NCBI RefSeq assembly: GCF_900104675.1
Contig: NZ_LT629945.1
Location: forward strand, 2,532,756-2,596,755
From: Angelakisella massiliensis
Lineage (GTDB): Bacteria; Bacillota; Clostridia; Oscillospirales; Ruminococcaceae
Length of the DNA: 64,000 nucleotides
Direction of reading: 5' to 3'
In this document: positions 5,064 through 64,000 of the stretch, in pieces
Layout of the letters: every line of letters begins with the position of its first letter
Position numbering within the stretch: the stretch's first letter is position 1
Notes under the pieces: model-generated
Database searches by the model: none
What the model saw: only the letters and a program-made list of their open reading frames with translations
What the model was told of the DNA's origin: nothing
Made by a program: the position numbers and the translations under genes

Positions 5064-7139
5064 TTGCAGAAACTGACAACATGGATGCTCAAAGCCCGTT
5101 ATGGGATCGTGGCCTTCTTTCTGGCAGCAACCGTCGTATGCGGCGCACTGACGATGCTGGTCTCCGTCAACTACGATATGGTGGACTATCTGCCTGACGA
5201 AGCCCCATCCACCATCGCTTTGGACGTGATGGACAACGCTTATGAAACCGCCGTTCCCAACCTGCGGGTGATGGTGCCAGATGTATCCATCCCCCAAGCA
5301 CTGGAATATAAGGAACGTCTTGCCCAGGTTCCGGGGGTAGATGATATTCTGTGGCTGGATGATCAGGTAAGTCTGACCGTCCCCCTGGAAACGCTGGATC
5401 AGGAAACTGTATCCGACTGGTATTCCGATGGCTGTGCTCTGTTCTCCATTACCGTTGCGGAGGAGGGGCAGCTGGAAACCTTGGAGCAGATCCGCCAGAT
5501 CATCGGTGATGGCGGCGCCATCAGCGGAAACCCCATGGATACCGTCAACGCTCAGGTAACCACCAGCTCTGAAGTGAAACGGATGATGTCCTATATCATT
5601 CCCATCCTGTTTCTCATCCTGCTGCTGACCACCACCTCCTGGTTTGAGCCGGTGCTGTTTATGGTCAATGTAGGCATCGCCATTGTACTGAATACGGGCA
5701 CCAACCTGATTTTCGGCGAAATTTCCTTCATTACACAAACCACCGGCGCTATCCTGCAGCTGGCCTGCTCCATGGATTATGCCATCTTTTTGCTGGATCG
5801 CTTTGAAGAGATCCGTAAGGAAAATGTTCCTCCCATGGAGGCTATGGCCCAGGCAGTGGTCAAATCCGCTTCCTCCATTCTCTCCAGCGGTCTGACCACC
5901 GTGGTGGGCTTTGCCGCTCTTATTGCCATGCGCTTTAAAATCGGGCCGGATATGGGCTTTGTGCTGGCCAAGGGAATCGGTCTTTCCCTGATCACCACCC
6001 TGATCTTTATGCCCTGCCTGACCATGTGCTGCTACCGGCTGATTGACAAAACCATGCACCGCTCCTTTATGCCCACTTTTGAGCGGACCGCCAGAGCCAC
6101 CAGCCGGATCAAAAGCTTTGTCACCATTATGGTGGCGGTGCTGCTGATTCCCTGCTGTCTGGCTCAGCAGAATCTTTCCTTCCAATACGGAATGTCCGGT
6201 ATGGCGGCTCCCGGCTCTCAGGTAGCCAATGACCGGGATGCTATCAATGAAAAATTCGGAGAATCCGCCTCCTTTGCCCTGATGGTCCCAGAGGGCAATT
6301 CCGCCGCTGAAAAGGCCCTCAGCGAGGAGGTCAAAGCGCTGCCCCAGGTTGCCAGCGTGATCTCATACGCCGAAACGGTGGGCAGCTCCATTCCTGACCA
6401 ATATGTTCCGCCGGATCAGCTCAAAGAGCTGAATTCAGGAGGATATACCCGGCTGGTGATCACTGCCCGCATCCCTCCGGAAAGCCCGGAAACCTTCGCT
6501 TTTGTCAAAACATTGCGTCAAACCGCTCAAAAGTATTATCCCGATTCCGCTCTGCTGGCAGGGGAATGCGCCAATGTTTATGACATGAAGGAAACCATCA
6601 CCGCCGACAGTGTAAAAGTCAATGCCATCGCCATCGGCGCCATTGCCCTGATCCTGCTGGTCAACTTTCATTCCATTACCCTCCCCTTCTTCCTGCTGCT
6701 GACCATTGAGTCCTCCATTTTCATCAACATCGCCGTTCCCTATTTCACCGGCAGCTCCATGAACTACATCGGCTATCTGATTATCAGCTCGGTACAGCTG
6801 GGAGCTACTGTGGATTACGCTATTCTTTTTACCAACCGCTATCTGGAAAACCGGGCACAGATGCCCCGGAAGCTCTGTCCCGCCAAAACCATCCAGGATA
6901 CTGCCGGCAGCATTCTTACTTCCGGCGGCATCCTCACTGTGGCCGGCCTGATTCTGGGGCTCATTTCCACCAATGGCGTCATCAGTCAGCTGGGTATCCT
7001 GGTGGCCCGGGGCGCGGTTCTTTCCGCCATCCTTGTGCTGGTGTTCCTCCCTGCGCTGCTGACCGCCTTTGAACCCCTCATCCTGCGGACCACCCGCAAG
7101 CTGCATTTCTATCAGGAGAAAGGAGCCGCCCAAACATGA
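5064..7139 (+). CDS. MMPL/RND-superfamily membrane exporter
   Basis: 691 residues with two similar halves. Each half has one N-proximal transmembrane helix (first about residues 13-33), an extracellular domain of ~130-150 residues, then five clustered helices. This is the MMPL/hydrophobe exporter plan. Motifs such as GAILQLACSMDYAIFLLDR in the first half and SVQLGATVDYAILFTNR in the second carry the conserved D-Y pair implicated in proton coupling. The start is TTG with GGGAG nine bases upstream. The stop overlaps the next start (ATGA), so the two are coupled. The substrate is probably a lipid or other hydrophobic compound, from family knowledge only. It is divergent from a TetR gene. Confidence 0.9.
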   Translation: MQKLTTWMLKARYGIVAFFLAATVVCGALTMLVSVNYDMVDYLPDEAPSTIALDVMDNAYETAVPNLRVMVPDVSIPQALEYKERLAQVPGVDDILWLDDQVSLTVPLETLDQETVSDWYSDGCALFSITVAEEGQLETLEQIRQIIGDGGAISGNPMDTVNAQVTTSSEVKRMMSYIIPILFLILLLTTTSWFEPVLFMVNVGIAIVLNTGTNLIFGEISFITQTTGAILQLACSMDYAIFLLDRFEEIRKENVPPMEAMAQAVVKSASSILSSGLTTVVGFAALIAMRFKIGPDMGFVLAKGIGLSLITTLIFMPCLTMCCYRLIDKTMHRSFMPTFERTARATSRIKSFVTIMVAVLLIPCCLAQQNLSFQYGMSGMAAPGSQVANDRDAINEKFGESASFALMVPEGNSAAEKALSEEVKALPQVASVISYAETVGSSIPDQYVPPDQLKELNSGGYTRLVITARIPPESPETFAFVKTLRQTAQKYYPDSALLAGECANVYDMKETITADSVKVNAIAIGAIALILLVNFHSITLPFFLLLTIESSIFINIAVPYFTGSSMNYIGYLIISSVQLGATVDYAILFTNRYLENRAQMPRKLCPAKTIQDTAGSILTSGGILTVAGLILGLISTNGVISQLGILVARGAVLSAILVLVFLPALLTAFEPLILRTTRKLHFYQEKGAAQT

Positions 7140-8713
7140 TCAAACGCTTTTGTTCCCTGCTTTTATCGCTGATGCTGGGGATATCCGCCGTTACCATCTC
7201 CTATGGGGCTGAGAGTGAAAAACCTCAGCTGTTGGATGTGGTCCTTTATGAAACCTCTGTCTGCCCCGGACAAAGTGTTCATGTGGGGATGGACGCCTGG
7301 TGTTCCGGAAATCCGGAACAGCTTTCCATAACCTTCCTCCAGGAGGAAACCGGCTCTGTTCTGGCCCTTTCCCTTCGTTCCACCGCTCCCGGTTCCATGG
7401 TGGGCCAGCGGTATGAAGGAAATCTCACCCTGCCGGAAAACGCCGCTCCCGGCCGCTACAGTCTGCGGACAGTAACTCTGATGGACAGCCAGGGCAACCG
7501 GATACGGTATACCTCCTGGGACAGCGGTGAGGAGCTGCTGTCGGATGTGCTGGATGAACTTCCCGCTTTCACTGTGGTATCCGGTTCAGGACGTCCGCTT
7601 CTGACGGGATGCTCCGTTTCCCCCGCTTCCCTGACCCCCGGTGAGGAGGCTACTGTCAGCCTTCAAACCTCTCTGTCCTCCAGCGAACTGGAGCGCGCTT
7701 CCCTGCTGTTTCGCAATGAAGACAACGGCCATGTGCTGGTCCTTTCCCTGGAGGAGGAGGACTGGGTCGGAGATGGGATGTATCAGAAAACGCTGGAAAT
7801 TCCTCCTTATGAGGAAGCGGGCAGTTTCCAACTGGTAAAGGCAACCATCAAAAACTCCGCCTCAGGGGAACAAACCTGGAGCCATCGCCTTCATTTGGAC
7901 GATGAGGACGCTCCGGATCAGCTGCCCATCCCTTTCCAGTGCGGCTTTCAAGTAACAGGCACCAGCCGGAGCGACGCTTCCGCCCCTGTTCTTTCCTCTG
8001 TAACCGTCACCGATATTCGACAGAAAATCGACAGCGGAGACCTGGAATATCATTTGGAAGCCCGGGCTTCCGATGATCGCTCAGGAGCGGCCAGAATCAC
8101 TCTGCTATTCCGCAACAGTGCCAATGACCGAACTCTCTCCGCTGTGCTGTGGCCTGATGACGAGGATTCCCAACTGTTTACCGGCACCATGACCGTCAGT
8201 TCCTGGGAACCGGCGGGGGCATTTTTCCTGGAACAGGCAGGCGTCACTGATGAAGCCGGTAATTTCCAGAGCTATCGCAATGCCTGGGACCTGGGACAGG
8301 CCGGCACGGATCTTCCTCTCCCCCAGGAGCTCACGATTGAGGTGAATACAGGCAGCGAGGCGGCCGATGACACGGCCCCTGTTCTGGAAAGCCTGTCTCT
8401 TGACCGTCAGACCATCTCCCGGGGAGAGACTGTCGCAGTCACCGCCAAGGTGTCCGATGACCTCTCAGGGGTCAAGGACGTTTCCCTCCAGTTCCGCAGC
8501 CGAAGTGACAGTCCCCTTTCCCTGGTACTCTATCAACAGGGAGATGCCTGGGTGGGCACCATCAAGGACACTCAAAAGCTGGAACTGGGCCAATACCGTC
8601 TGACCCGGGTCACCCTCCGGGATGAAGCGGGCAACCGCCGGGGCTACTACGAATCCCCCGGCAGCTACAGTGAAGGGCTCCCCGTTTCTCTCACCTTTGT
8701 GGTGGAGGACTAA
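7136..8713 (+). CDS. Secreted multi-domain beta-sandwich protein, unknown
   Basis: 525 residues with a signal peptide (positive N-terminus, hydrophobic LLLSLMLGISAVTISYGA, then AES). The mature part is built from four repeats of ~115 residues, each ending in a segment like LxxVTxxDxxGN-xxx-Y. Examples are LRTVTLMDSQGNRIRY, EQAGVTDEAGNFQSY and LTRVTLRDEAGNRRGYY. These recall Ig-like or bacterial beta-sandwich repeats. There is no LPxTG, TM helix or catalytic motif. It overlaps the exporter stop by 4 bases and precedes the DG-repeat protein, so it is probably an extracytoplasmic partner of the exporter. No known family name is claimed. Confidence 0.7.
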   Translation: MIKRFCSLLLSLMLGISAVTISYGAESEKPQLLDVVLYETSVCPGQSVHVGMDAWCSGNPEQLSITFLQEETGSVLALSLRSTAPGSMVGQRYEGNLTLPENAAPGRYSLRTVTLMDSQGNRIRYTSWDSGEELLSDVLDELPAFTVVSGSGRPLLTGCSVSPASLTPGEEATVSLQTSLSSSELERASLLFRNEDNGHVLVLSLEEEDWVGDGMYQKTLEIPPYEEAGSFQLVKATIKNSASGEQTWSHRLHLDDEDAPDQLPIPFQCGFQVTGTSRSDASAPVLSSVTVTDIRQKIDSGDLEYHLEARASDDRSGAARITLLFRNSANDRTLSAVLWPDDEDSQLFTGTMTVSSWEPAGAFFLEQAGVTDEAGNFQSYRNAWDLGQAGTDLPLPQELTIEVNTGSEAADDTAPVLESLSLDRQTISRGETVAVTAKVSDDLSGVKDVSLQFRSRSDSPLSLVLYQQGDAWVGTIKDTQKLELGQYRLTRVTLRDEAGNRRGYYESPGSYSEGLPVSLTFVVED

Positions 8714-18204: not shown

Positions 18205-19572
18205 ATGAGCAGCCAGCAAAGCAGCCATGGCATGACCGACATGACTCAGGGCCGCCCTGCCCGTCTGATTTTCTTTTTTGCCCTGCCTCTTTTGGTGGGA
18301 AACATTTTTCAGCAGCTGTACAATATGGTGGACAGCATCGTGGTGGGCCGGTATGTGGGAACCATCGCCCTGGCCGCCGTCGGGACAGGCTTTCCCCTGA
18401 TTTTTATGCTCAGCTCCCTGTTCATGGGGCTGGGCATCGGCGCAACTGTCATGGTAGCGCAGTATTACGGCGCTCAGGATCATGAAAAAGTGCGCCGCAC
18501 AGTGGACACCATCTATACCGCCCTGGTGGTGGGCGCCATTCCCCTGACCGTCATCGGACTGCTTCTGACCGACCCGCTGTTATGGCTGATGAACGTTCCC
18601 GCCGATACCATGGCTGACGCCCGGACCTATGTTCTCATCGTCTTCGGCGGCATTGTGGGAACTTTGGGCTATAACGTCAACGCCGGTATCCTTCAGGGAT
18701 TGGGGGACAGCCGTACTCCCCTGCTGTTTCTGGCCATCGCCTGCGTGATCAATATCGTGCTGGATCTGACCTTTGTCATCGTCTTCCACATGGGCGTGGC
18801 AGGAGTGGCCATCGCCACCATCATCGCTCAGATTTTCAGCTGGATCTTCGGCATCTTCTATATCAACCGCAAGTATCCCATGCTTCAGATCCACCCCTTC
18901 AGCTTCCGCTTTGAACGGCAGCTTTTTTCCCAGCTGATCCGCCTGGGTATTCCCGCCGGAATTCAGCAGGCCCTTTTCTCCCTGGGCATTATGACCCTTC
19001 AGGCTCTGGTCAACCGCTACGGTGCGGACTTTATTGCCGGTTTCAATGGCGCAAACAAGCTGGACACCTTCGCCTTTATGCCCATCCAAAGCTTCTGTAC
19101 CGCCGTGACCACCTTTGTGGGACAAAATATCGGCGCCGGACGAATGGACCGGGTCCGTTCCGGAACACGCTCCGCACTGGTGATGTCCTGGGGCTTCTGC
19201 CTGGGCGCAAACCTGCTGCTGCTCCCTTTCGGCCCGGTATTCATGCGGATGTTCAGCACCTCCCCCGCCGTTATTGACGCGGGTATGGCCTATCTCAACC
19301 GGGTTCTTCCCTTCTATTTTCTGCTGGCGCTGTTTTTCACCCTTTCCAGCGTCATGCGGGGAGCCGGTGAAATGATGATCCCCATGATCAGCAGTATCCT
19401 TTCCCTGTGGCTGGCCAGAGTGCCCGCCGCTTATCTGCTGGACGCTTTGTTTGGGCGGGACAATATGTTCTTCTGCTATGTGGTGGGCTGGCTGGTGGGC
19501 GTCATTGTCTCCGGTGTCGCTTATTTCCATGGAGGCTGGCGGAATAAAGCCGTGGTGACACAGCAGTCCTGA
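18205..19572 (+). CDS. MATE-family efflux transporter
   Basis: 455 residues with twelve predicted helices in two homologous halves. The N-terminal signature is MTQGRPARLIFFFALPLLVGNIFQQLYN, then VDSIVVGRYVG. The second half has the matching GADFIAGFNGANKLDTFAFMP segment. MATE proteins export cationic drugs or metabolites in exchange for Na+ or H+. The start at 18205 has AGAAGGAGGTTTTACGG upstream. A frame from 18160 also has AAAGGATGA before it but adds a charged tail that is unusual for the family. It has no regulator beside it. Another MATE gene lies at 48.1 kb. Confidence 0.92.
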   Translation: MSSQQSSHGMTDMTQGRPARLIFFFALPLLVGNIFQQLYNMVDSIVVGRYVGTIALAAVGTGFPLIFMLSSLFMGLGIGATVMVAQYYGAQDHEKVRRTVDTIYTALVVGAIPLTVIGLLLTDPLLWLMNVPADTMADARTYVLIVFGGIVGTLGYNVNAGILQGLGDSRTPLLFLAIACVINIVLDLTFVIVFHMGVAGVAIATIIAQIFSWIFGIFYINRKYPMLQIHPFSFRFERQLFSQLIRLGIPAGIQQALFSLGIMTLQALVNRYGADFIAGFNGANKLDTFAFMPIQSFCTAVTTFVGQNIGAGRMDRVRSGTRSALVMSWGFCLGANLLLLPFGPVFMRMFSTSPAVIDAGMAYLNRVLPFYFLLALFFTLSSVMRGAGEMMIPMISSILSLWLARVPAAYLLDALFGRDNMFFCYVVGWLVGVIVSGVAYFHGGWRNKAVVTQQS

Positions 19573-53965: not shown

Positions 53966-54058
53966 CAAAATTCCCCGCTTTCGGTGGGCCGCTGCCGCAG
54001 TCCTCTTTAATCAATTCATTCTGTGGATAATACCTATTTAAAAGAGAAACCTTTCTGC

Positions 54059-54799
54059 TCAGAAAATACCCAAAAACTTTTTGCGCTTGACACGAATGAC
54101 AATATCCTGGGAAAATGTTGTGATTGCTTCCATAGACTGGTCATCATATACCGTCAATGTGGCCGTTACATCATAAAATCCTTCCTCGAGTGTTACCGAC
54201 AAACGATCTTTCTGGATGCTTTGGCCCGGTTTGAGCATCGCTGAAGTATAAATCAGCTCTCCTGTATCCGTCAGCCGATACTGCAGCTGCATGGGGTACA
54301 TATTGCCCGGGGTATTCTCCACCATAATGTCCCCTTCTCCCCCCGGTTGGTCAAAGGTGACGCCGCTGTTGAGAAGGTAATTGAACGCATCGGCATTGGT
54401 GTTGATCTCCTGATCTTCATATCCCGGCAGCCGGCCATCCACCACAGCCTCTTCGTTGCCTCCGGGATAGCCTCCCGTGGGAGCGTCAATACCGCTGTTT
54501 CCCTGTTGGCTGGAAGAACTCTCCTGCTGGGAGGAATCCTCATCTGAATCACCTTCCGGCAGGGAATCATTTTCCTGGCTTTCCTCTCCGGACGTCTCCT
54601 CTTCTTCCCCTGAGGATGAAACCTCATCTTCCTTTTCCTCTTGCGCCGATATAGAGGATTCTCCAGCAGGCCCCACAGGCAAACTGTCCTCCGGAGTGAG
54701 CGCCGACAGGGCCGCGGCAAGGCCAACAGATACCGCGATGATCAAAATAGAAATGATCGTCAGTTGAATCCCGCCTTTGTTCACATTCAACCTCCTCAT
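54059..54799 (-). CDS. Membrane-anchored protein with Glu/Ser-rich linker, unknown
   Basis: 246 residues. One helix near the N-terminus (~12-34, TIISILIIAVSVGLAAALSAL) is followed by a very acidic, Ser-rich linker (~45-105). A ~130-residue domain ends in a basic motif VKRKKFLGIF. The last domain contains the beta-rich segments ITTFSQDIVIRVKR and MLKPGQSIQKDRLSVTLEEGFYDVTATLTVYDD, a shape seen in bacterial sheath/adhesin-associated domains. A strong promoter (54949-54977) and a 150-base leader with a CCGG-type hairpin precede it. No family name is given. Confidence 0.65.
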   Translation of the reverse strand: MRRLNVNKGGIQLTIISILIIAVSVGLAAALSALTPEDSLPVGPAGESSISAQEEKEDEVSSSGEEEETSGEESQENDSLPEGDSDEDSSQQESSSSQQGNSGIDAPTGGYPGGNEEAVVDGRLPGYEDQEINTNADAFNYLLNSGVTFDQPGGEGDIMVENTPGNMYPMQLQYRLTDTGELIYTSAMLKPGQSIQKDRLSVTLEEGFYDVTATLTVYDDQSMEAITTFSQDIVIRVKRKKFLGIF

Positions 54800-54948
54800 C
54801 CCCGCAATGCCGGAAAAACCGGTGTGCTGGATAATATAACGACGGGCAGCACTGAAATATTTACTCCCCGCCGTAAAATCTTATTTCATATCCTGCTCCG
54901 GCAAAAGTGCCTAAAAATCCTCCGGAGCCGCTTATCAGGATGAACCAT

Positions 54949-54977
54949 ATTATACACCATTTTGCCCCGCCTGACAA
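54949..54977 (-). promoter_or_regulatory. Promoter of the anchored acidic protein gene
   Basis: TTGTCA, 17 bases, TATAAT on the minus strand, a near-consensus pair. Confidence 0.75.
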
Positions 54978-55100
54978 TCTTTTGGCTGTTTTTCCCTGAT
55001 GTAACCATCTTCTGCCGCCTTTGAAACCGAAAAAGAAGGAATGGTTTTGTCATAAAAGGGATAAAATGTTAGAAAGAAAAGAGAAAAAGCATTTTTTTGG

Positions 55101-55129
55101 TTTACACCATGTAGAAATCATATTATAAT
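55101..55129 (+). promoter_or_regulatory. Promoter of the carboxypeptidase gene
   Basis: TTTACA, 17 bases, TATAAT, about 100 bases before the ATG. A small CGGAA/TTCCG hairpin sits near the ribosome site. Confidence 0.75.
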
Positions 55130-55231
55130 AAAATAAAATGTCTGACAACAAGTGTTGCCTGGCGTGGCCACCGCATAAGGTCCGCTGTTCTCGGAAAGCT
55201 TTTTTCCGCTTGTAATAAATGGAGATGTGTG

Positions 55232-56824
55232 ATGAAAAAAGGAACCCTCTTCCGGCTGCTGGCCAGATTGGCCGCCTCTTTGATCGTGGCAGCCGCTTTA
55301 CCTGTGACGGCTTTGGGATTGACCCCTGATCTGAATATCTATTCTGACGCCTATGTGGTGATGGATGCCGCATCCGGTCAGGTTTTGATCGAGAAAAACA
55401 TGAACAAACAGAAAGCTCCCGCCAGCATCACCAAAATCATGACGCTGGCACTGGCGCTGGAGCGGTGCAATATGGATGACACCATCACTGTCAGTCAGGA
55501 AGCAGTCAATTCCATCGAGCCCGGCAGCACTCATATCGCTCTGGTCCCGGGGGAAGTCATCACTTTCAGGGATGCTGTCATGGGCACTCAGCTGATTTCC
55601 GCCAATGACGCGGCCAACGTGGTGGCGGAACACGCCGGCGGCAGTATCAGCGCCTTTGTTGATTTAATGAACGCCAAAGTGGCCGAGTTGGGACTGACAG
55701 GAACTCATTTTGTCAACCCCAACGGGCTGGATGCCGACGGACACTATGTTACCGCTTATGATATGGCAGCCATCACCCGATATGCCATTTCCGTTCCGGG
55801 CTTTCGGGAGGTATTCGGGGAAACGGAATACCAAATGCCCCCTACCAATATTAAATCCAGAGATTATGTTTTTTATGCCCAAAACGCCGTGATGTTTCCG
55901 GAAAACGCAGAATATTATGAAGGTATCGAGGGCAGCAAGCTGGGCTATACCTATAATGCCAACCATACCTTGGTAGCCCTTGCCAAGCAGGGAAACATGG
56001 AACTGATTGTGGTGGCCCTGGATTCCACCGGTAAGGATCAGAAATATGAGGATATGGCCACACTGCTGGACTATTGCTTTGCCCGTTACGAAACCATGAC
56101 CCTGCGGGCGAAGGAACTGCAGACCATGGAGGTCCCCATTGCCAGTATCGAAAGGCCCACTGACATGGTAGAGGTGGCGGCGGATGAGGACTACACCTTC
56201 GTGGTGCCTCTGGGAACCGCCAAAAGCAGTCTGGAAATCCGATACAACATCCCGGATCTGTATAAAAGCGAAAGAACCGTAGACCCCTCCTTTTCTGTAT
56301 ATGGCTCCAATGGCGAATTGCTGTTCTCAGCACCCCTGTCCTATACCATCCAGCCGGTAGAACGCCCGGCGGAAGCAGCTCCCACCGAATCAGTACCAAA
56401 GGATGACCGTCTTCTGGCGCTGCTGATTTTGGCTATCAAATGTCTGTGTGTGCTTCTTGGCGTATTGGTGGTGCTTTTGCTGGTGGTACGCACTTGTATT
56501 ATGATGAACTATCAGAAAAAGCAAAAGGAAATCCAGCGGAAAAAGCAGGAGGCGATTGCCCGCCGCAAAAAAGCCCTTCAGCGGCAGCAGGATGAGCTTC
56601 GCCGCAGAGAGATTTCCGATCTGGCGAAAGGACGGATCATCCATAACGATCCCCGAATTGAAACACCTCCCCCGGTTCCCGGCCTGCCTGATAACGTAAC
56701 CATCATCCATCCCAACAGGCGGGTTCCTCAGCAAAATACAAGGAATCGTCAGCAAAGCGGCGGCCAGCGCCGTCCCCAGCCCCAAAACGGAAAGGTTTCT
56801 TCCGGACAGGGCAGCAGAGGCTGA
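55232..56824 (+). CDS. D-alanyl-D-alanine carboxypeptidase (DacF/PBP5 family), with C-terminal helix and basic tail
   Basis: 530 residues. A signal peptide is followed by the penicillin-binding core. SxxK is Ser65-I-T-Lys68, the second motif is Ser123-Ala-Asn125, and the third motif reads Lys236-Leu-Gly238 where KTG is usual. The enzyme trims D-Ala from peptidoglycan. After a PBP5-like C-domain comes a membrane helix (~391-413), then a ~115-residue Lys/Arg/Gln-rich tail predicted to be cytoplasmic. Most PBP5 proteins end in a short amphipathic anchor instead. GGAG seven bases before ATG 55232 supports the start. Confidence 0.9.
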   Translation: MKKGTLFRLLARLAASLIVAAALPVTALGLTPDLNIYSDAYVVMDAASGQVLIEKNMNKQKAPASITKIMTLALALERCNMDDTITVSQEAVNSIEPGSTHIALVPGEVITFRDAVMGTQLISANDAANVVAEHAGGSISAFVDLMNAKVAELGLTGTHFVNPNGLDADGHYVTAYDMAAITRYAISVPGFREVFGETEYQMPPTNIKSRDYVFYAQNAVMFPENAEYYEGIEGSKLGYTYNANHTLVALAKQGNMELIVVALDSTGKDQKYEDMATLLDYCFARYETMTLRAKELQTMEVPIASIERPTDMVEVAADEDYTFVVPLGTAKSSLEIRYNIPDLYKSERTVDPSFSVYGSNGELLFSAPLSYTIQPVERPAEAAPTESVPKDDRLLALLILAIKCLCVLLGVLVVLLLVVRTCIMMNYQKKQKEIQRKKQEAIARRKKALQRQQDELRRREISDLAKGRIIHNDPRIETPPPVPGLPDNVTIIHPNRRVPQQNTRNRQQSGGQRRPQPQNGKVSSGQGSRG

Positions 56825-56844
56825 TGCTTGCCTCGATCTGTTCT

Positions 56845-56878
56845 CAGGCTCTCCCCTTCCGGGAGAGCCTGATTTTTG
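56845..56878 (+). terminator. Terminator after the carboxypeptidase gene
   Basis: CAGGCTCTCCC / GGGAGAGCCTG with a 5-base loop and ATTTTTG. Confidence 0.85.
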
Positions 56879-57026
56879 TGAAGCTGCCATCTATCAGCGG
56901 AAAATTTGCGAACCTGTCCGCGGCACTGCGTTTTCTGTTTCTTCACAGCCCTTGGGCAGGCTTGCGCCTGATGATAAATTGTGCTAGACTGAAACAGGAT
57001 TTTGCAAACCAAGTGGAGGATTTTGT

Positions 57027-57356
57027 ATGAAAATCATTCTTTGTGATGAAGAGATGCCTCAGGTGAGCATTTTTATCACCGCGGCAGTAGAAAAGGAAAC
57101 AGGACTGGATATCGCTGTTCTGGAGCAGGAAAATGAAGATTTTCCCGGCAGCCTTGGGCGTGAATTCCACTATCATCTTCATGTGGAGCCCCAGTATCTG
57201 GATAAGCTGACGGAGGCGCTGATGGTTTCTTCCCGGCTGACCCGCCTGGAAGAGCTTCTGCTGGAGCGCTTCTCCGGAATCAATGGTCTTGCCCGCATTC
57301 AGGCTTTTTGTGAAGAGGCTCAAGTCCCTTTTTCCTGCGAAGCACCGGAGCTGTGA
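57027..57356 (+). CDS. Small conserved-looking protein, unknown
   Basis: 109 residues starting MKIILCDEEMPQVSIFITAAV. It is acidic, with mixed alpha/beta character and two helices near the C-terminus (LTRLEELLLERFSGINGLARIQAFC). GGAGGATTTTGT precedes the ATG and a strong terminator follows, so it is probably expressed as a single gene. I do not recognise a family. Confidence 0.65.
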   Translation: MKIILCDEEMPQVSIFITAAVEKETGLDIAVLEQENEDFPGSLGREFHYHLHVEPQYLDKLTEALMVSSRLTRLEELLLERFSGINGLARIQAFCEEAQVPFSCEAPEL

Positions 57357-57391
57357 GATTCTCAAAAGCAGAATCTTCTTTTCATCCATTC

Positions 57392-57431
57392 AAAAAGGCC
57401 GGAGCTGCCACTTGGCAATTCCGGCCTTTTT
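57392..57431. terminator. Bidirectional terminator
   Basis: AAAAAGGCCGGAG / TTCCGGCCTTTTT separates the small protein from the convergent DUF3810 gene. Confidence 0.9.
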
Positions 57432-57454
57432 GCTGCTTTATGCGCATTTATTCA

Positions 57455-58612
57455 TCATTCAATACCATGGCGTGTTCGATAATCCGCCAGAAGCAGATCT
57501 ACCATCCGCCCATAGCTGGCCACCCCGTCACTTTGACTGTTGGCTTTCAGGTACACATCGTTGACCTTGGTGGAGAACTCTCCAAAAGAACTTTTATGCG
57601 CCTGATAATATTCTGAATCCGCCTGCAGATCCAGCATCACCTGATCGGAGAGCGCAGCCATTACCTGCCGATAACTTTCGGTATCCACTCCATAAAGAGC
57701 ATTGGTCGCGTGAATCAAAGCGGTCATGGTGCCGCTGTACTGAAAATCTTTACTGGCACTTTCCCTGCAGGCAAGATAAGCGATAAAATTTGCCTCATCC
57801 TCCCGCATGAAACCGACAATATGGCACAGCTCATGGCACATAGCATGAGGGATATCAATATCAGAGGTATGTATATTAACGTTAGCCTCCATTGTATAAG
57901 GGAAAAACACACCCACAATCTGCATATAGGACATAGCTTCTGAAAAAAAGACAGGCTTTGGCCGCACTCTCCCCGCCAGTGTCAACAGCTGCTCCCATTG
58001 TGGATTGGCATTTATCAATGCCTGATAGCTTTCCATCGCCTGTTCAGACATCTCCCAATGGCTTGCAGGGGCGTAGGTGTAAACTCCCCGCTGATCCTCC
58101 TGCAGACCGCTGCGCAGTTGGTTGGCTGTATCGGCCAGCTCCTGACACAGCGCTGTCAGCTGGGATACCGGAGATTCTTTGACCTCAAGACCACTATAGA
58201 AGGAAAATGGGTATCGGTAATAATTGAGCCCGCCGGACAAAGTAAAGAAAAACAGGACCAAGGCTGCCGCTCCTCCTGCCCGAAACAGCATCAGCAGCAA
58301 TAAATAGCTTCTCTCACCTTTTTTATGTGCGATTATCCATATGGAACGGATCAGAAACGCCAGCGCTCCCACCGCCGCCAAAATTACAATCCACTCTGCC
58401 AGAGAAAAAGGAACCGGTGTTGTCAACGCAGCCAAAACGCCGGCCCATCTGGGATAGAACCACAGGCTGTAGTATTGTTCCACCCAGTCTGGATGACCTT
58501 TGGCCCACCAAACCAGTCCCAAAGCCAATGCCCCCAGCAACCAGCATATTGTAAAAAACAGCCGTTCTTTTCTCCCCAGTCTGGAGAAAAAAGTGATTTT
58601 GGTCCCCTTCAA
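57455..58612 (-). CDS. DUF3810-type membrane protein with zinc-protease motif
   Basis: About 385 residues. Three or four N-terminal helices (~18-130) are followed by a large soluble domain. The motif is His260-Glu261-Leu-Cys-His264 (HELCH), followed by MREDEANFIAYLACRES, which offers acidic third-ligand candidates. This suggests a metallopeptidase in the DUF3810 family. The start is uncertain. TTG 58612, with AGGGGG nine bases upstream and 13 bases after the Smr stop, is preferred. ATG 58651 would overlap the Smr gene and has a poor ribosome site. The two genes form one operon. Confidence 0.78.
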   Translation of the reverse strand: MKGTKITFFSRLGRKERLFFTICWLLGALALGLVWWAKGHPDWVEQYYSLWFYPRWAGVLAALTTPVPFSLAEWIVILAAVGALAFLIRSIWIIAHKKGERSYLLLLMLFRAGGAAALVLFFFTLSGGLNYYRYPFSFYSGLEVKESPVSQLTALCQELADTANQLRSGLQEDQRGVYTYAPASHWEMSEQAMESYQALINANPQWEQLLTLAGRVRPKPVFFSEAMSYMQIVGVFFPYTMEANVNIHTSDIDIPHAMCHELCHIVGFMREDEANFIAYLACRESASKDFQYSGTMTALIHATNALYGVDTESYRQVMAALSDQVMLDLQADSEYYQAHKSSFGEFSTKVNDVYLKANSQSDGVASYGRMVDLLLADYRTRHGIE

Positions 58613-58625
58613 TCTGTGTATCCCC

Positions 58626-58961
58626 CTATAAAACGACAATTGTAATCCCATGATTGATTCGTGCGTAATCCTGGTCCCTGCACAAATAAGGATAACGGGC
58701 AATCGCCCATCGGCTACTTTCATCAAAGGGGGAAAAATCCTCACCGCAGATATAGCAGCGAATCTCCCCAGCCTCCGCGCGAAGGTTCAGCTCCCGACGG
58801 ACCGCGCTGCGGATAGCGCCTCCCTTTCCGGTGGAACCGTAGCCATGAATCAATTTGATCACATCGGTTCTTCTGCTTTTGGCAGTCAACAATGTCTGCC
58901 GCAGCTGAATCATTGCCCGATCCACTGTGGGCATACCCGATTCCAAATTTACAACGATCAT
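58626..58961 (-). CDS. Smr (MutS2 C-terminal type) domain protein
   Basis: 111 residues. VVNLESGMPTVDRAMIQLRQTLLTAKSRRTDVIKLIHGYGSTGKGGAIRSAVR matches the Smr core, with the HGxGxGxLR-like motif (HGYGSTGKGG). The C-terminus carries a CYICGE segment and tends toward another fold. Stand-alone Smr domains nick DNA or bind RNA. GAAGGG lies before ATG 58961 and a GTG nine bases earlier is less likely. It begins a two-gene operon with the DUF3810 gene. Confidence 0.8.
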   Translation of the reverse strand: MIVVNLESGMPTVDRAMIQLRQTLLTAKSRRTDVIKLIHGYGSTGKGGAIRSAVRRELNLRAEAGEIRCYICGEDFSPFDESSRWAIARYPYLCRDQDYARINHGITIVVL

Positions 58962-58970
58962 TTTTTCCAC

Positions 58971-59447
58971 CCTTCTGCCAGCGGCTCAGCAGCAATTTTT
59001 TTCATTATAACTGCAATTGATGAACAAGTAAACAGAACCACTGATCATAAAATATGATTTTGTCAGCTATCATGATTTCATAGCGGAACTTGACCGAAAA
59101 AGTGTATTCTGTCAGCAAACACTTTGTATCATTTTGTTTTCTTCACAGGGATGTTTCCTGTCGCTGGTTTAACCTCAGGCACTAGTCTAATTGCCGATTT
59201 TTTTGTAGATAATTGTCTAATTTTACGATTTCATTGTATTCTTGAATAAATTTTGAACATTGAATTTACAAATGGTTCAAAATTGATTATGCATTTTGAC
59301 CACTAAACACCAGTTTATAATAGGCAATGTGTATATATTGAAACAGATGATACAAAGTTTATCCTGCTACAGACAAAAGGGGCAATTTCTGTTATCTTAT
59401 TCACAGGTGATTTTGTGCCGCAATCAATTAAAGGAGTGAAATCAAAC
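58971..59447 (+). promoter_or_regulatory. A/T-rich control region before the YfcC gene
   Basis: A long A/T-rich gap. GTCTAATTgccGATTT (59185) and GTCTAATTttaCGATTT (59215) are direct repeats exactly 30 bases apart. TTTTGAAC (59251-59258) and GTTCAAAA (59275-59282) form an inverted repeat. TTGACC about 20 bases further (59298-59303) with TAATAG 16 bases on is a plausible promoter. The repeats look like activator and repressor sites for the strongly codon-biased genes downstream. Confidence 0.45.
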
Positions 59448-60890
59448 ATGGCAAAAGAAAATGCACCTGTCATGAAAGAAAAGAAGAAAAACCGCTTCCC
59501 GGATGTATACGCTCTGCTGTTCATCCTGTGTATCGCGGCAATGGTACTGACCTGGATCATTCCAGCCGGCGCCTTTGACCGTGTAGCTGAGGGAAGCATC
59601 AATCGCGTAGTGGCCGGCAGCTTCCACTACATCGATGGCGTTCCTCAAAACCCCTGGGATATGCTGCAATGTATCTATCAGGGCTTTATTAACAGCTCCT
59701 CCACCATCTTTATGATCTTCTTCTGCGGCGCTGCTATCGGTATGCTGGAGGAAAGCAAATCCCTTTCCACTGCTTTTACTGTTATGGCCAACAAGCTCCG
59801 CGGCAAGGAAGCCATCTCCATGGCCGTTATCATGTTCGGTCTTGGTCTTGGTAACTCCGCCGGCGTGTTCGGCAACCTGGGTATCGCTATCGTTCCCATC
59901 GGTATCTACCTTGCCCGTGCTATGAACGGCGATGACTTCCTGGGCTTCCTGATCATCTACTTCGGCCTGATGTCCGGTTTCTCCATCGGTTTTGCCAACC
60001 CTGGTATTCTGGGTGTTGCTCAGACCATTGCCGAGATTCCGATTTTCTCCGGTACTCTCCCCCGTCTGATTTGCTGTGTGGCTAACATCACCTTCCTGTA
60101 CATCGTTACCGTTTTCTATTACAAGCGCATTCAGAAGGATCCCACCTGCAGCCTGAACTACGAGCCCGGTATGCAGCCCTATCAGTATATCGGTAATGCC
60201 CGCAGCGGCGGCAACGCTGAGGATCCCAGCAAGCTGAAGCTGAATAAGCGTCAGGCCATCGTTGTGGTCTTCTTCCTGGTTGCTGTTGTTGCCTGTGTTT
60301 CTCTGACCATCATCAACAGCTGGGGCACCAAGCAGATTTCCGCCTGGTTCCTGGGCACTGCTGTGATCGTCGGTATCCTCTCCGGCTTTGACATGAACGA
60401 TATCGCCAAGAAGTTTATCAAGAACTGCGCTCCCATGGTTTCCGCTTCCTTCGTTGTCGGTATTGCCAGCTCTGTGGCGCTGATTCTCTCCAACGGTCAG
60501 GTTATGGATACTATCGTTAACGCTCTGAGCGCTCCTCTGGCCCAGATGGGTGCCGTTGCCGGTGCCGGCTTCATGGTAGTTATCAACGCTCTGATCAACA
60601 TCCTCATTCCTTCCGGTTCCGGTCAGGCCGCTGTGGTTATGCCTCTGATGACCCCCATCGCGGACCTGGTTGGTATCACCCGTCAGGTAGCTGTTCAGGC
60701 CTTCCAGTTCGGCGATGGTCTGAGCAACCTGGCTACTCCCCTCAATGGACCTCTGATGGGATGCCTGGCCATTGCTGGCGTAAGCTTCCCCAAGTACTTC
60801 AAGTGGGCTATCAAGTTCATTCTTATTGAGATCGCTGTCTCCACTATCGTAACCATGGGCCTGCAGGCCGCTGGCTGGGTCGGCTATTGA
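59448..60890 (+). CDS. YfcC-family membrane transporter
   Basis: 480 residues with about twelve helices. It begins RFPDVYALLFILCIAAMVLTWIIPAGAFDR. Typical motifs are FMIFFCGAAIGMLEES, GLGNSAGVFGN, and the conserved INILIPSGSGQAAVVMPLMTPIADLVGITRQVAVQAFQFGDGLSN. YfcC/ArcD-like proteins move amino acids, peptides or dicarboxylates, often as exchangers. AAAGGAG precedes ATG 59448. It is followed by peptidase-like hydrolases, so the cargo is probably a dipeptide or N-acyl amino acid. The codons are heavily C/T-ending, suggesting high expression. Confidence 0.92.
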   Translation: MAKENAPVMKEKKKNRFPDVYALLFILCIAAMVLTWIIPAGAFDRVAEGSINRVVAGSFHYIDGVPQNPWDMLQCIYQGFINSSSTIFMIFFCGAAIGMLEESKSLSTAFTVMANKLRGKEAISMAVIMFGLGLGNSAGVFGNLGIAIVPIGIYLARAMNGDDFLGFLIIYFGLMSGFSIGFANPGILGVAQTIAEIPIFSGTLPRLICCVANITFLYIVTVFYYKRIQKDPTCSLNYEPGMQPYQYIGNARSGGNAEDPSKLKLNKRQAIVVVFFLVAVVACVSLTIINSWGTKQISAWFLGTAVIVGILSGFDMNDIAKKFIKNCAPMVSASFVVGIASSVALILSNGQVMDTIVNALSAPLAQMGAVAGAGFMVVINALINILIPSGSGQAAVVMPLMTPIADLVGITRQVAVQAFQFGDGLSNLATPLNGPLMGCLAIAGVSFPKYFKWAIKFILIEIAVSTIVTMGLQAAGWVGY

Positions 60891-60908
60891 TCTCCCCTCT
60901 GTGGTTAT

Positions 60909-60954
60909 AAACGCCCGGCCTCTTCTGCTCGAGGGGGCCGGCGTTTGTATTTTG
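60909..60954 (+). terminator. Hairpin between transporter and M20 gene
   Basis: AAACGCC-GGCC pairs with GGCCGGCGTTT and is followed by GTATTTT, a partial terminator likely to lower downstream expression. Confidence 0.6.
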
Positions 60955-61004
60955 CATGGGGACAATCCCCAAATATTTTTGATCATGAAAAGGAGATGTT
61001 TGTG

Positions 61005-62195
61005 ATGATTGATGTTCGTGCGGCAGTAAAGGAGATCACTCCTGAAATCACTGCAATGCGCAACCATATCCATGAATATCCGGAGCTGAGCATGAAGGAG
61101 TACAACACCTGTGCTTACCTGGAAGAGTATGTGAAAAAGAACGTACAGTATGATCGCCTGAAAAGAGTGGGTGAAACCGGTCTCTTCTTTGAAATCAAAG
61201 GTACCAAGCCCGGTCCCGGTCATGTGATCGTTTTCCGCGGCGATATCGATGCGCTGCCCATTCAGGAAGATCCTTCCATGTCCCCCTGCAGCAAGGTTCC
61301 CGGAGTTATGCACGCCTGCGGTCATGACGTCCACGGCACCATCAATGTGGGCGCTGCCAAGATCCTCAGCCAGTGCAAAGATCAGTTCTCCGGCTCCATT
61401 TACTTCTTCATTCAGCCCGCTGAAGAGACTCTTTCCGGCGCTAAGCTGTTCCTCAATGATCCTGAGATTGATTTTGATAAGATCGACGCTGTTGCCGCTC
61501 TTCATTGCTCTGCGGAACTGGATGCCGGCACCGTTGGTATGCGTTATGGCGCTATTCTGGCCAGCGCTGACGAATTCAAAATCACCGTTAAGGGCAAAGG
61601 TGGCCACGGCGCTCACTGCCACACTGTGCGGGATCCCATCGTAGCCGCCAGTGCTATTGTCACCGGCCTCCAGCCCCTGGTTTCCAGAGAGACCAATCCT
61701 GCCAACTCTGTTGTTGTTTCTGTCTGCACCATCCATGGCGGAAATGCCCACAACATCGTGCCTGACACTGTGGAGCTGACCGGTACTGTCCGTACACTGA
61801 ACGCTGCTGATCGTGACCGTGTGGAAGAAAGCCTCAAGCGTGTTGCCACCAGCGTTGCAGAAGCTTATCGGGTTACTGCAGAGGTGGATTATATGCGCGG
61901 TGTTCCTCCCTTTGTTTGCGAGGATGAGTGGGTTGACCGTGCGCTGAGAGCCAGCAAGAAGATGCTGGGCGCCGACAACGTCAAGATCATGCCTTATGCT
62001 GCTATGGGCGGCGAGGACTTTGCCTTTATTAAGGAAAAGAAACCCGGTATCTTCATCCGTCTGGGTTCCCGTACTCCTGGTGGTCCTTACGGTTCTGCTC
62101 ACTCCTCCACCTTCTACAGCGATCCCCTGTGCATTCCCACCGGTATGCTGACCATCATTGGTCTGGCGGCTGATTATCTGGGCTTTGAGGTGTAA
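61005..62195 (+). CDS. M20-family amidohydrolase (aminoacylase/peptidase)
   Basis: 396 residues. The motifs are FRGDIDALPIQED, MHACGHDVHGTINVGAAKIL, the FIQPAEE segment, KGKGGHGAHCH and YAAMGGEDFAFI. These hold the two-metal site, with Cys and His in the ACGHDVH cluster. Substrates of this IAA-amino-acid/hippurate-hydrolase group are N-acyl amino acids or dipeptides. ATG 61005 is chosen, as AAAAGGAG ends nine bases earlier. An upstream ATG (60996) directly abuts the Shine-Dalgarno and is unlikely. It sits between the transporter and the M24 gene in the same strongly biased codon style. Confidence 0.92.
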   Translation: MIDVRAAVKEITPEITAMRNHIHEYPELSMKEYNTCAYLEEYVKKNVQYDRLKRVGETGLFFEIKGTKPGPGHVIVFRGDIDALPIQEDPSMSPCSKVPGVMHACGHDVHGTINVGAAKILSQCKDQFSGSIYFFIQPAEETLSGAKLFLNDPEIDFDKIDAVAALHCSAELDAGTVGMRYGAILASADEFKITVKGKGGHGAHCHTVRDPIVAASAIVTGLQPLVSRETNPANSVVVSVCTIHGGNAHNIVPDTVELTGTVRTLNAADRDRVEESLKRVATSVAEAYRVTAEVDYMRGVPPFVCEDEWVDRALRASKKMLGADNVKIMPYAAMGGEDFAFIKEKKPGIFIRLGSRTPGGPYGSAHSSTFYSDPLCIPTGMLTIIGLAADYLGFEV

Positions 62196-62220
62196 GCCGT
62201 TTCCAATCAACTGTTCAAAT

Positions 62221-62256
62221 CTGTCCGGAGGGCTGAAAAACCGGTCCTCCGGACAG
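62221..62256 (+). repeat. Strong hairpin in the M20-M24 gap
   Basis: CTGTCCGGAGG pairs with CCTCCGGACAG with no T tract after it, so it is more likely an mRNA-processing or stability element than a terminator. Confidence 0.5.
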
Positions 62257-62285
62257 GTGATATGATAACAAAGGAGTGTGTTGTG

Positions 62286-63434
62286 ATGATTCCATTTCCC
62301 GCTCATGAACGTGCCGTAAAGCTGAGAAATATAATGGCTGAACAAGGCCTTGACTTTTGTCTCCTTTCCAGCCCTGAGAACATGGAATATTTCAGCGGTT
62401 TTCAGGCCATTACCTACACTCGTCCCATTCGTCTGGTGGTTACCGGGGACTGCACCCATCTGATCGTGCCTGCCTTGGAGGAAGAACACGCCACTCTGGA
62501 TTCCACAGTGGTGGATCACCTCCACATCTATTATGAGCATCCCCCCAAGGCCCAGGAGAATCCGGGAGCCTTTGCTATCCTCAAAAATATTCTTTCTGAG
62601 AAAGCCAATGCCGCTGTTGGTGTTGAAGCGGGTTCTCTCAGCCTGGCACAGGCGCAGATGCTGGAAAGCTGGGGCTGCCGCCTGAAGGATATCTCTGCCC
62701 TTCTGGTACGGATGCGTGCCATCAAGGATGAGTACGAAAAGGACTGCATTCGTGAGGCGGGCCGCCTGTGCAGCTATGCCATGGGCGTTTCTCTTGAGCA
62801 CGCCCGTCCCGGCATCAGCGAGTTGGAATTTGAGCAGTATGGTACTACCGCTCTGTACAACCTGATCTCCGGCGATGATTATCCTTATGTGTTCTCTTCC
62901 CCCACCTGCTTTACTCCTTCCGGAATCAAACGCACCAATATGCCCCATGTGTTCTCCGGTCTGAGACAGTTCCAGGACGGCGATATGGTCATCCATGTGC
63001 GCAAGCCTGCCATTAACGGCTATCATGGTGAGCTGGAGCGTACCTTCTTTGTGGGACATCCCAACGAAAAGGCAAAACGCGCCTTCTCCGCCATGGTGGA
63101 AGCTCAGATGACCGTGCTGGATGCCATTCGTCCCGGTGTTACCGGCGGCGAAATGGATGCTCTGGCCCGGAAGGTACTGAATAAGTATGGCTATGGGGAA
63201 TACGCCATCCATCGGGTTGGCCACGGTCAGGGTCTGGGCCGCCATGAGGAACCCTTCCTGATTTATGATTCCAACCTGGTGCTGGAAGAAAACATGGTCT
63301 TTACTGTGGAGCCCGGTATCTACATCCCCGATGTGGGCGGTTTCCGTCATTCCGATACCCTCATTATTACCAAGGACGGCTACGAAAACACCACCCCCTT
63401 CAAGCGGCTTCCTGAGGAATTGACCTTCGCCTGA
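62286..63434 (+). CDS. Creatinase/prolidase-fold (M24) protein with altered metal ligands
   Basis: 382 residues. The N-terminal creatinase-like domain spans ~10-140 and the pita-bread catalytic domain ~150-382. In the M24 five-ligand set (Asp, Asp, His, Glu, Glu) this protein has His237, Glu249, His313, Glu342 and Ser356. Three of five are replaced. ELERTFF, GGFRHSD and DGYENTTPF resemble the metal-free creatinase branch. It may therefore hydrolyse or rearrange a C-N bond of a small molecule rather than cut Xaa-Pro peptides. AAAGGAG nine bases before ATG 62286 supports the start. It follows the M20 gene closely. Confidence 0.85.
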   Translation: MIPFPAHERAVKLRNIMAEQGLDFCLLSSPENMEYFSGFQAITYTRPIRLVVTGDCTHLIVPALEEEHATLDSTVVDHLHIYYEHPPKAQENPGAFAILKNILSEKANAAVGVEAGSLSLAQAQMLESWGCRLKDISALLVRMRAIKDEYEKDCIREAGRLCSYAMGVSLEHARPGISELEFEQYGTTALYNLISGDDYPYVFSSPTCFTPSGIKRTNMPHVFSGLRQFQDGDMVIHVRKPAINGYHGELERTFFVGHPNEKAKRAFSAMVEAQMTVLDAIRPGVTGGEMDALARKVLNKYGYGEYAIHRVGHGQGLGRHEEPFLIYDSNLVLEENMVFTVEPGIYIPDVGGFRHSDTLIITKDGYENTTPFKRLPEELTFA

Positions 63435-63530
63435 TCCTCATTTGTTGGCCTGCACCGAATGGAAAGCACGAAACTCCCTCCATCCATGCAATTGATTCCT
63501 CTCGCTTTTCCGTTCCGGTTTCGGCATATA

Positions 63531-63577
63531 ACCGCTGTCGTGATTGCTCTACCCTTTCACGACGGCGGTCTTTTTTA
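63531..63577 (+). terminator. Terminator after the M24 gene
   Basis: ACCGC-GTCGTGA / TCACGAC-GCGGT followed by CTTTTTT. Confidence 0.85.
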
Positions 63578-63819
63578 TTGCGTCATTTTCTTTACTGGAC
63601 AATTTTTGTGGGCATCTGGCATGAAAATGTTGGAAGCCTTGCTTCCCCGGAGTTTTTATGCCATAATTAAAACATACTTGGGCAGCTGCTTGTCCTTGTG
63701 TATTTCCTTCTTTCAAGGTTGTTTATATTGGTTCAATCAGCTGCATCCAGAAAAAATGAAATGTTTCCTATGGGGTCCCCATTCCATAGTCAGAGAAATA
63801 TAGAGAGGAGCTTGTTACA

Positions 63820-64000
63820 ATGAATCCCCAGCAATGCCGTGAAGCGGTGGTGTATGCCGCACACAAAATCTATGAGCGCCAAATGGTCAATACCAACGAA
63901 GGAAATGTATCTGTCTGCTACGACGGACGGGTTTACATCACTCCTTCCCAAGTGTGCAAAGAACTGCTGACCCCAGAAATGATCGTTGTGACCAACCTGG
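63820..64000 (+). CDS. Class II aldolase/adducin-family protein, cut at right edge
   Basis: Sixty residues are visible, reading MNPQQCREAVVYAAHKIYERQM then VNTNEGNVSV with the GRVYITPSQ continuation. N-x-G-N-x-S is the class II aldolase phosphate loop and TPS is the conserved metal-site lead-in. Such proteins cleave sugar phosphates (fuculose, rhamnulose, ribulose types). The ATG follows AGAGGAGCTTGTTACA. The role cannot be set without the C-terminal ligand residues. Confidence 0.85.
   Translation, partial: MNPQQCREAVVYAAHKIYERQMVNTNEGNVSVCYDGRVYITPSQVCKELLTPEMIVVTNL

Follow-up and report, generated by a model that had tools for sequence, protein, structure and literature searches.

The gene at positions 62286..63434 (forward strand) of the window, by which we mean the whole 64,000-nucleotide stretch of Angelakisella massiliensis DNA analysed here, encodes an M24-fold hydrolase of 382 amino acids whose two-metal (binuclear) site is, judging from the alignments, broken. 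The same dismantled pattern defines a clade of 18 proteins, hereafter the core, and is not peculiar to the window strain. Tentatively, we read the window protein as a catabolic hydrolase that splits an imported, most likely proline-containing amide without the usual metal pair, and the core as an undescribed M24 clade on the creatinase side; we found no prior report of it in the open-access literature. That reading is provisional when taken whole; that the enzyme is a transporter-coupled amide hydrolase is, on its own, likely.

The reading frame is intact and contains Pfam domains Creatinase_N (E 7.6e-22) and Peptidase_M24 (E 8.4e-47). The start codon is served by a good ribosome-binding site, AAAGGAG, with which an alternative in-frame ATG at 62262 overlaps. 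Compared with a 95%-identical ortholog (L006) over 381 codons, 160 differences fall at third codon positions and 35 at first and second positions together; the gene is real and under strong purifying selection. The 4.04-Mb genome encodes three M24 proteins, this one included. Besides L006, the close orthologs in Angelakisella (Oscillospiraceae) are L007 and L008, both at 79% identity, and carriers make up 4 of 10 genomes in the genus search (the window's own counted), 2 of 198 in a family sample and 1 of 394 in an order sample. An antisense open frame of 1302 codons (59442-63350, reverse strand) spans this gene and the yfcC and M20 genes upstream of it; because related strains have only shorter frames there, each broken differently, it is most likely an artefact of codon usage.

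The five canonical M24 metal ligands are documented, for example, for the P. horikoshii dipeptidase (PMC2814137). We located their columns by phmmer alignment to P. furiosus prolidase 1pv9 and among ~115 M24 sequences, and further alignments gave the same register. In the window protein these columns hold Val238, Glu249, His313, Glu342 and Ser356. The column of prolidase Asp209 is Val238 in every alignment (elsewhere in the core, Ser or Thr), Asp220 is conservatively replaced by Glu249, and the bridging Glu327 is replaced by Ser356 within a GGFRHSD motif (codons 351-357, 63336..63356, forward strand); His313 and Glu342, which bound codons 313-342 (63222..63311, forward strand), are kept. Two of the five ligands are gone and a third is altered from Asp to Glu. 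The initial annotation, whose named residues are all present at the numbers it gave, had likewise counted three changed ligands and was right about Glu249, Ser356 and the retained His313 and Glu342, but the first ligand is Val238 and not, as it had stated, His237. The alignment register rules out His237 as a substitute ligand. It lies one residue before Val238 on the same predicted strand (233-239), and because it directly precedes the ligand position there, it most likely points away from the metal site. His237 is invariant in all 18 core proteins and absent from both broader relatives and creatinase, and is therefore a real signature with another role. It opens the stretch IH(S/V/T)(R/H)...E249-x-E251-R-T (codons 237-253, 62994..63044, forward strand), which takes in Val238, Glu249 and Glu251. 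Glu249 is invariant in the core and is Ala at that position in creatinase; because of this invariance, a single-ion site formed together with His313 and Glu342 is possible. Catalysis without metal is likely for the window enzyme, though short of certain because these three residues might bind one ion.

The core proteins were gathered from searches of genomes and plasmids. Members other than the window protein are 38-79% identical to it, and the hosts are Bacillota and one Acidobacteriota (a metagenome bin); the gene was present in 5 of 219 genomes of one Bacilli order and in 9 of 398 Bacilli genomes. All 18 proteins share Y44, R46, H68, R216, H221, H237, E249, E251, R252, H309, R310, H313, H320 and E342, as well as RHSD at 354-357, which includes H355 and S356. 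This conservation bears on the idea that the protein is a degenerate, non-enzymatic member of the family. Two ligands are indeed lost, and non-catalytic M24 folds of the Spt16 type exist and appear among the structural matches; against this, the polar pocket residues are invariant across 18 distant proteins, selection is strong and the gene remains coupled to transporters, and we regard a pseudoenzyme as highly improbable.

A broader group with the pattern '...SELERT...GFRHSDT...', annotated as 'Xaa-Pro peptidase family protein', occurs in Halobacteria, Deinococcus, Thermomicrobiota, Bacillota, alphaproteobacteria and on a Bacteroidota plasmid. It has E249, E251, H313, E342, RHSD and the loss of the metal site in common with the core, but lacks H237, R239, Y44 and A41, and several of its genes adjoin genes for oligopeptide ABC transporters and membrane dipeptidases. 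On two haloarchaeal plasmids (L131:7000-11350 and L135), a GFRHSDT-type M24 gene sits beside dipeptide ABC transporters with a second M24 gene alongside that retains the metal ligands, and L131 also carries proline dehydrogenase. The opine-type region of Agrobacterium pTi_CFBP2788 (L128:8941-10146 and 18514-19128) encodes two divergent M24 proteins with further altered ligand motifs (FDRP and RFGD/RYGD), a separate non-canonical M24 branch.

In a tree rooted with methionine aminopeptidases (MetAP), the core, the broader group and creatinase form one clade (99/99) apart from the metal-dependent prolidases, pointing to the metal site having been lost only once. Our careful trees omit the very long branches of DoeA and of the Ti-plasmid and rhizobial M24 proteins. 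In the unrooted one the canonical metal-dependent sequences split off at 100/100 and the core is its own branch at 100/100; taking out all active-site columns leaves the canonical split at 99 SH-aLRT. Creatinases make up a long branch of their own (100/100), and the core is a separate branch (95/96 to 100/100) that is not nested inside it. No firm branching order of the three lineages emerged within the clade, and one quick unrooted tree even placed the core beside the canonical group (89). The initial annotation had allowed for clustering with standard Xaa-Pro peptidases that carry the same substitutions as the outcome contrary to its proposal; the window protein clusters away from the metal-dependent peptidases, and the annotation's doubt about an ordinary Xaa-Pro metallopeptidase was justified.

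Resemblance to those peptidases is nevertheless considerable. Metal-dependent prolidases (M24B; 1pv9, 3q6d) share ~30% identity with the window protein, along with domain order, the region of His221 and His320, H313 and E342, and some core relatives have proline-linked neighbours. They differ in the ligand substitutions described above and in belonging to the canonical clade, from which the window protein is excluded, and its score against the NCBIfam PepQ model is 179 bits where the cut-off is 630. A modified metallopeptidase that cleaves Xaa-Pro peptides with a single residual ion on E249, H313 and E342 would fit the invariance of these three residues in the core, the presence of E249 in the broader group as well, and the proline-related neighbours. 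The loss of Asp209 and of the bridging Glu327, the grouping of the clade with creatinase and not with metal-dependent prolidases, and the additional E251, which matches a substrate-binding residue of creatinase, make such an enzyme unlikely.

The closest solved structures are creatinases. An AlphaFold2 model of the window protein (m77604baf65f2; pLDDT 89, 19 sequences) matched best to 7yto, 1kp0 and 1chm (Z 42.9, 42.8 and 42.7; rmsd 1.9-2.0 Å over 371-372 residues), ahead of the best prolidase (Z 40.5) and DoeA (Z 38.9) in the same search. Mapped onto the Shinella creatinase whose gene adjoins creatininase, His232 corresponds to H221 (codon 62946..62948, forward strand), Glu262 to E251, Glu358 to E342, Arg64 to R46 (codon 62421..62423, forward strand) and Phe62 to Y44. 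Creatinase Arg335, which falls in a deletion, and His376, which is Ser356 in every core protein, are without counterpart. The catalytic and substrate-binding roles of the creatinase residues (1chm) are established, and we take them to apply to the equivalents in the window protein, where R46 would bind the substrate carboxylate from the partner subunit. The proteins are alike in whole-chain fold, in having no binuclear metal site, in the His232, Glu262, Glu358 and Arg64 equivalents and in their common rooted clade. They are unlike in sequence (identity at most 27%), in the core's own H237, R239 and E249, in branch and in gene context, the core genes having no creatinine-pathway neighbours. Because the four equivalents are matched and Arg335 and His376 are not, the window protein is a relative of creatinase and not a creatinase. 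Phylogeny, structure comparison and residue mapping thus all support the 'creatinase-like, non-metal active site' of the initial annotation, the absence of metal itself being inferred.

Shared residues, shared clade and structural proximity would all suit a guanidino (amidino) hydrolase, converting creatine, guanidinoacetate or a similar guanidino acid to an amino acid and urea. Such an activity is nonetheless quite unlikely, given the missing Arg335 and His376, the position of the core outside the long creatinase branch, the lack of any creatininase-family gene in the window genome, and the fact that we recognised neither urease nor creatininase beside core genes, both of which adjoin true creatinases. 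Having found no creatininase in the genome, we also reject the classical creatine pathway.

Upstream in the window, and conserved as neighbours in Angelakisella in the order yfcC, M20, M24, are genes for a YfcC/DcuC-family transporter of 479 amino acids (59451..60890, forward strand) and an M20 family amidohydrolase of 396 amino acids (61005..62195, forward strand), both noted in the initial annotation and confirmed by domain search. The class II aldolase that it had added to the locus is present, starting at 63820 and running past the window end, but has no counterpart beside M24 in the three Angelakisella loci with several kilobases of downstream sequence (L006, L008/L125 and L126; L007 and L079 stop just after the gene), and for that reason lies outside the conserved cassette. 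One Angelakisella lineage (L008:3894-6306 and L125) has two tandem M20 genes between yfcC and M24, 79% and 87% identical to the window M20. A terminator-like hairpin separates yfcC from the M20 gene (60915..60941, forward strand), and a strong hairpin of 17 predicted pairs with no T-run separates the M20 gene from M24 (62219..62258, forward strand). Because of these strong hairpins, a single transcript for the three genes is not certain. In L007 and L008 hairpins of unrelated sequence occupy the same two places, and in L006 the first alone is present, which suggests that the transcript is attenuated or processed there. No Rfam element was found within 54000-64000. In C. difficile, a yfcC-M20D pair lies downstream of a lysine riboswitch (PMC11477304), which argues for yfcC-M20 as a self-standing module for amides or amino acids.

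The M20 neighbour also raises the question of compatible-solute catabolism, in which the M24 protein would hydrolyse a cyclic amidine or amide, as ectoine hydrolase does, and the M20 enzyme would act as deacetylase in a pair like DoeA and DoeB2. The window M20 scores 235 bits against the DoeB2 model. BCCT and PucR neighbours in Bacillota recall the putative 'EutD' clusters that a 2026 paper describes from that phylum, likewise with BCCT and PucR genes alongside (PMC13188858); ornithine cyclodeaminase-family genes occur in one core locus (L118). Ectoine hydrolases (DoeA/EutD; 6twk, 6yo9) have the M24 fold, depart from the canonical metal ligands, serve solute catabolism and in some species have an M20-type partner. 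Yet the M20 score is below the DoeB2 cut-off of 550, and the window M24 protein reaches only 84 and 74 bits against DoeA models with cut-offs of 575 and 613. In the structural comparison, creatinases and many prolidases come ahead of the DoeA structures, and the active-site signature of S. meliloti EutD (FEIAG, VPLSRT, TGYPIG, FMTG, ETTES) is wholly different. On the cut-offs and motifs we reject identity with ectoine hydrolase, and consider a pathway of this kind very unlikely. No true DoeA was found on five plasmids searched with the DoeA model. The DMSP lyase DddP, which retains its metal ligands (PMC4108388), was rejected too: the window protein scores 33.5 of 600 bits and its ligands are not intact.

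Evidence on the substrate comes mainly from the neighbours of other core genes. A transporter is adjacent or near in all 17 core loci examined: an SSS symporter in eight (L009, L124, L152, L155, L192, L195, L196, L198), a BCCT carrier in four (L118, L123, L153, L154), an MFS transporter in three (L194, L197, L199), a peptide ABC system with DPP-IV, which releases Xaa-Pro dipeptides, in one (L193), and YfcC in one. Proline dehydrogenase (ProDH) occurs in L118, with PruA as well as the ornithine cyclodeaminase family; in L124; and in L192, with P5C dehydrogenase and a PrdR-like regulator. Amidohydrolases of the prolidase/arginine-carboxypeptidase type occur in L124, L152 and L192. ProDH is present in 3 of the 17 core loci and in 1 of 79 M24 loci used as controls (Fisher p 0.017), SSS in 8 of the 17 and in 1 of the 79 (p 1.5e-6), both p values being optimistic because the profiles were partly built from the same loci. 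In L192 (5542-8340), a transposase-like ORF (6765-7991) interrupts the symporter gene that separates P5C dehydrogenase from M24. Between pruA and BCCT in L118 (5413-6663) lie a short fragment resembling aconitase X and an incomplete frame of the ornithine cyclodeaminase family, which may be what is left of a hydroxyproline route. A search for PF07355 (glycine/sarcosine/betaine-reductase family) gave zero matches, but as it did so in the controls too, this result carries no weight.

This context does not support the initial annotation's view that a guanidino compound is a plausible substrate and Xaa-Pro peptides less so; nothing beyond the residues shared with creatinase speaks for the former. 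An N-acyl compound, its other suggestion, may still be the substrate. Because core relatives sit with ProDH, DPP-IV and amidohydrolases, proline amides are likelier than guanidino compounds, and if one substrate is to be named, a proline-containing one is the best choice, with moderate confidence. The link to proline involves a minority of core loci and none in Angelakisella, and one locus has HyuAB instead. BCCT carriers are of the betaine/carnitine type and would not be expected to import dipeptides; that of L118 is best matched by a CaiT-like NCBIfam model (498 of 541 bits). Because of this BCCT-linked branch, substrates may differ within the clade. It is doubtful, though worth entertaining, that the core as a whole is a metal-independent prolidase-like family in which the His/Glu machinery of creatinase cuts a proline imide or amide bond.

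Under the reading we favour, that of a catabolic amide hydrolase on the creatinase side, YfcC would bring a small amide into the cell. Probably as a homodimer, the M24 enzyme would hold the substrate carboxylate with R46 of the partner subunit and cleave the C-N bond by acid-base catalysis through H221, assisted by E251 and E342 as in creatinase, with the usual metal pair absent. The clade-wide substrate would most likely be a proline-containing amide, of Xaa-Pro type or an N-acylproline, and the M20 enzyme would handle a companion amide bond. The core-specific H237 and R239 are left unexplained by this scheme.

In automatic annotation these proteins go under the names 'Xaa-Pro peptidase' or 'metallopeptidase' despite their dismantled metal site, and the latter label is now open to question whichever substrate applies, for a core and sister group that together span several bacterial phyla and the haloarchaea. 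Hydrolysis of proline amides without metal would mean that one fold performs the same chemistry whether or not metal ions are present, and would allow a route of nutrient use to be assigned in gut and soil bacteria. Should the substrates be guanidino or betaine compounds, new reactions would be added to the creatinase side of the family.
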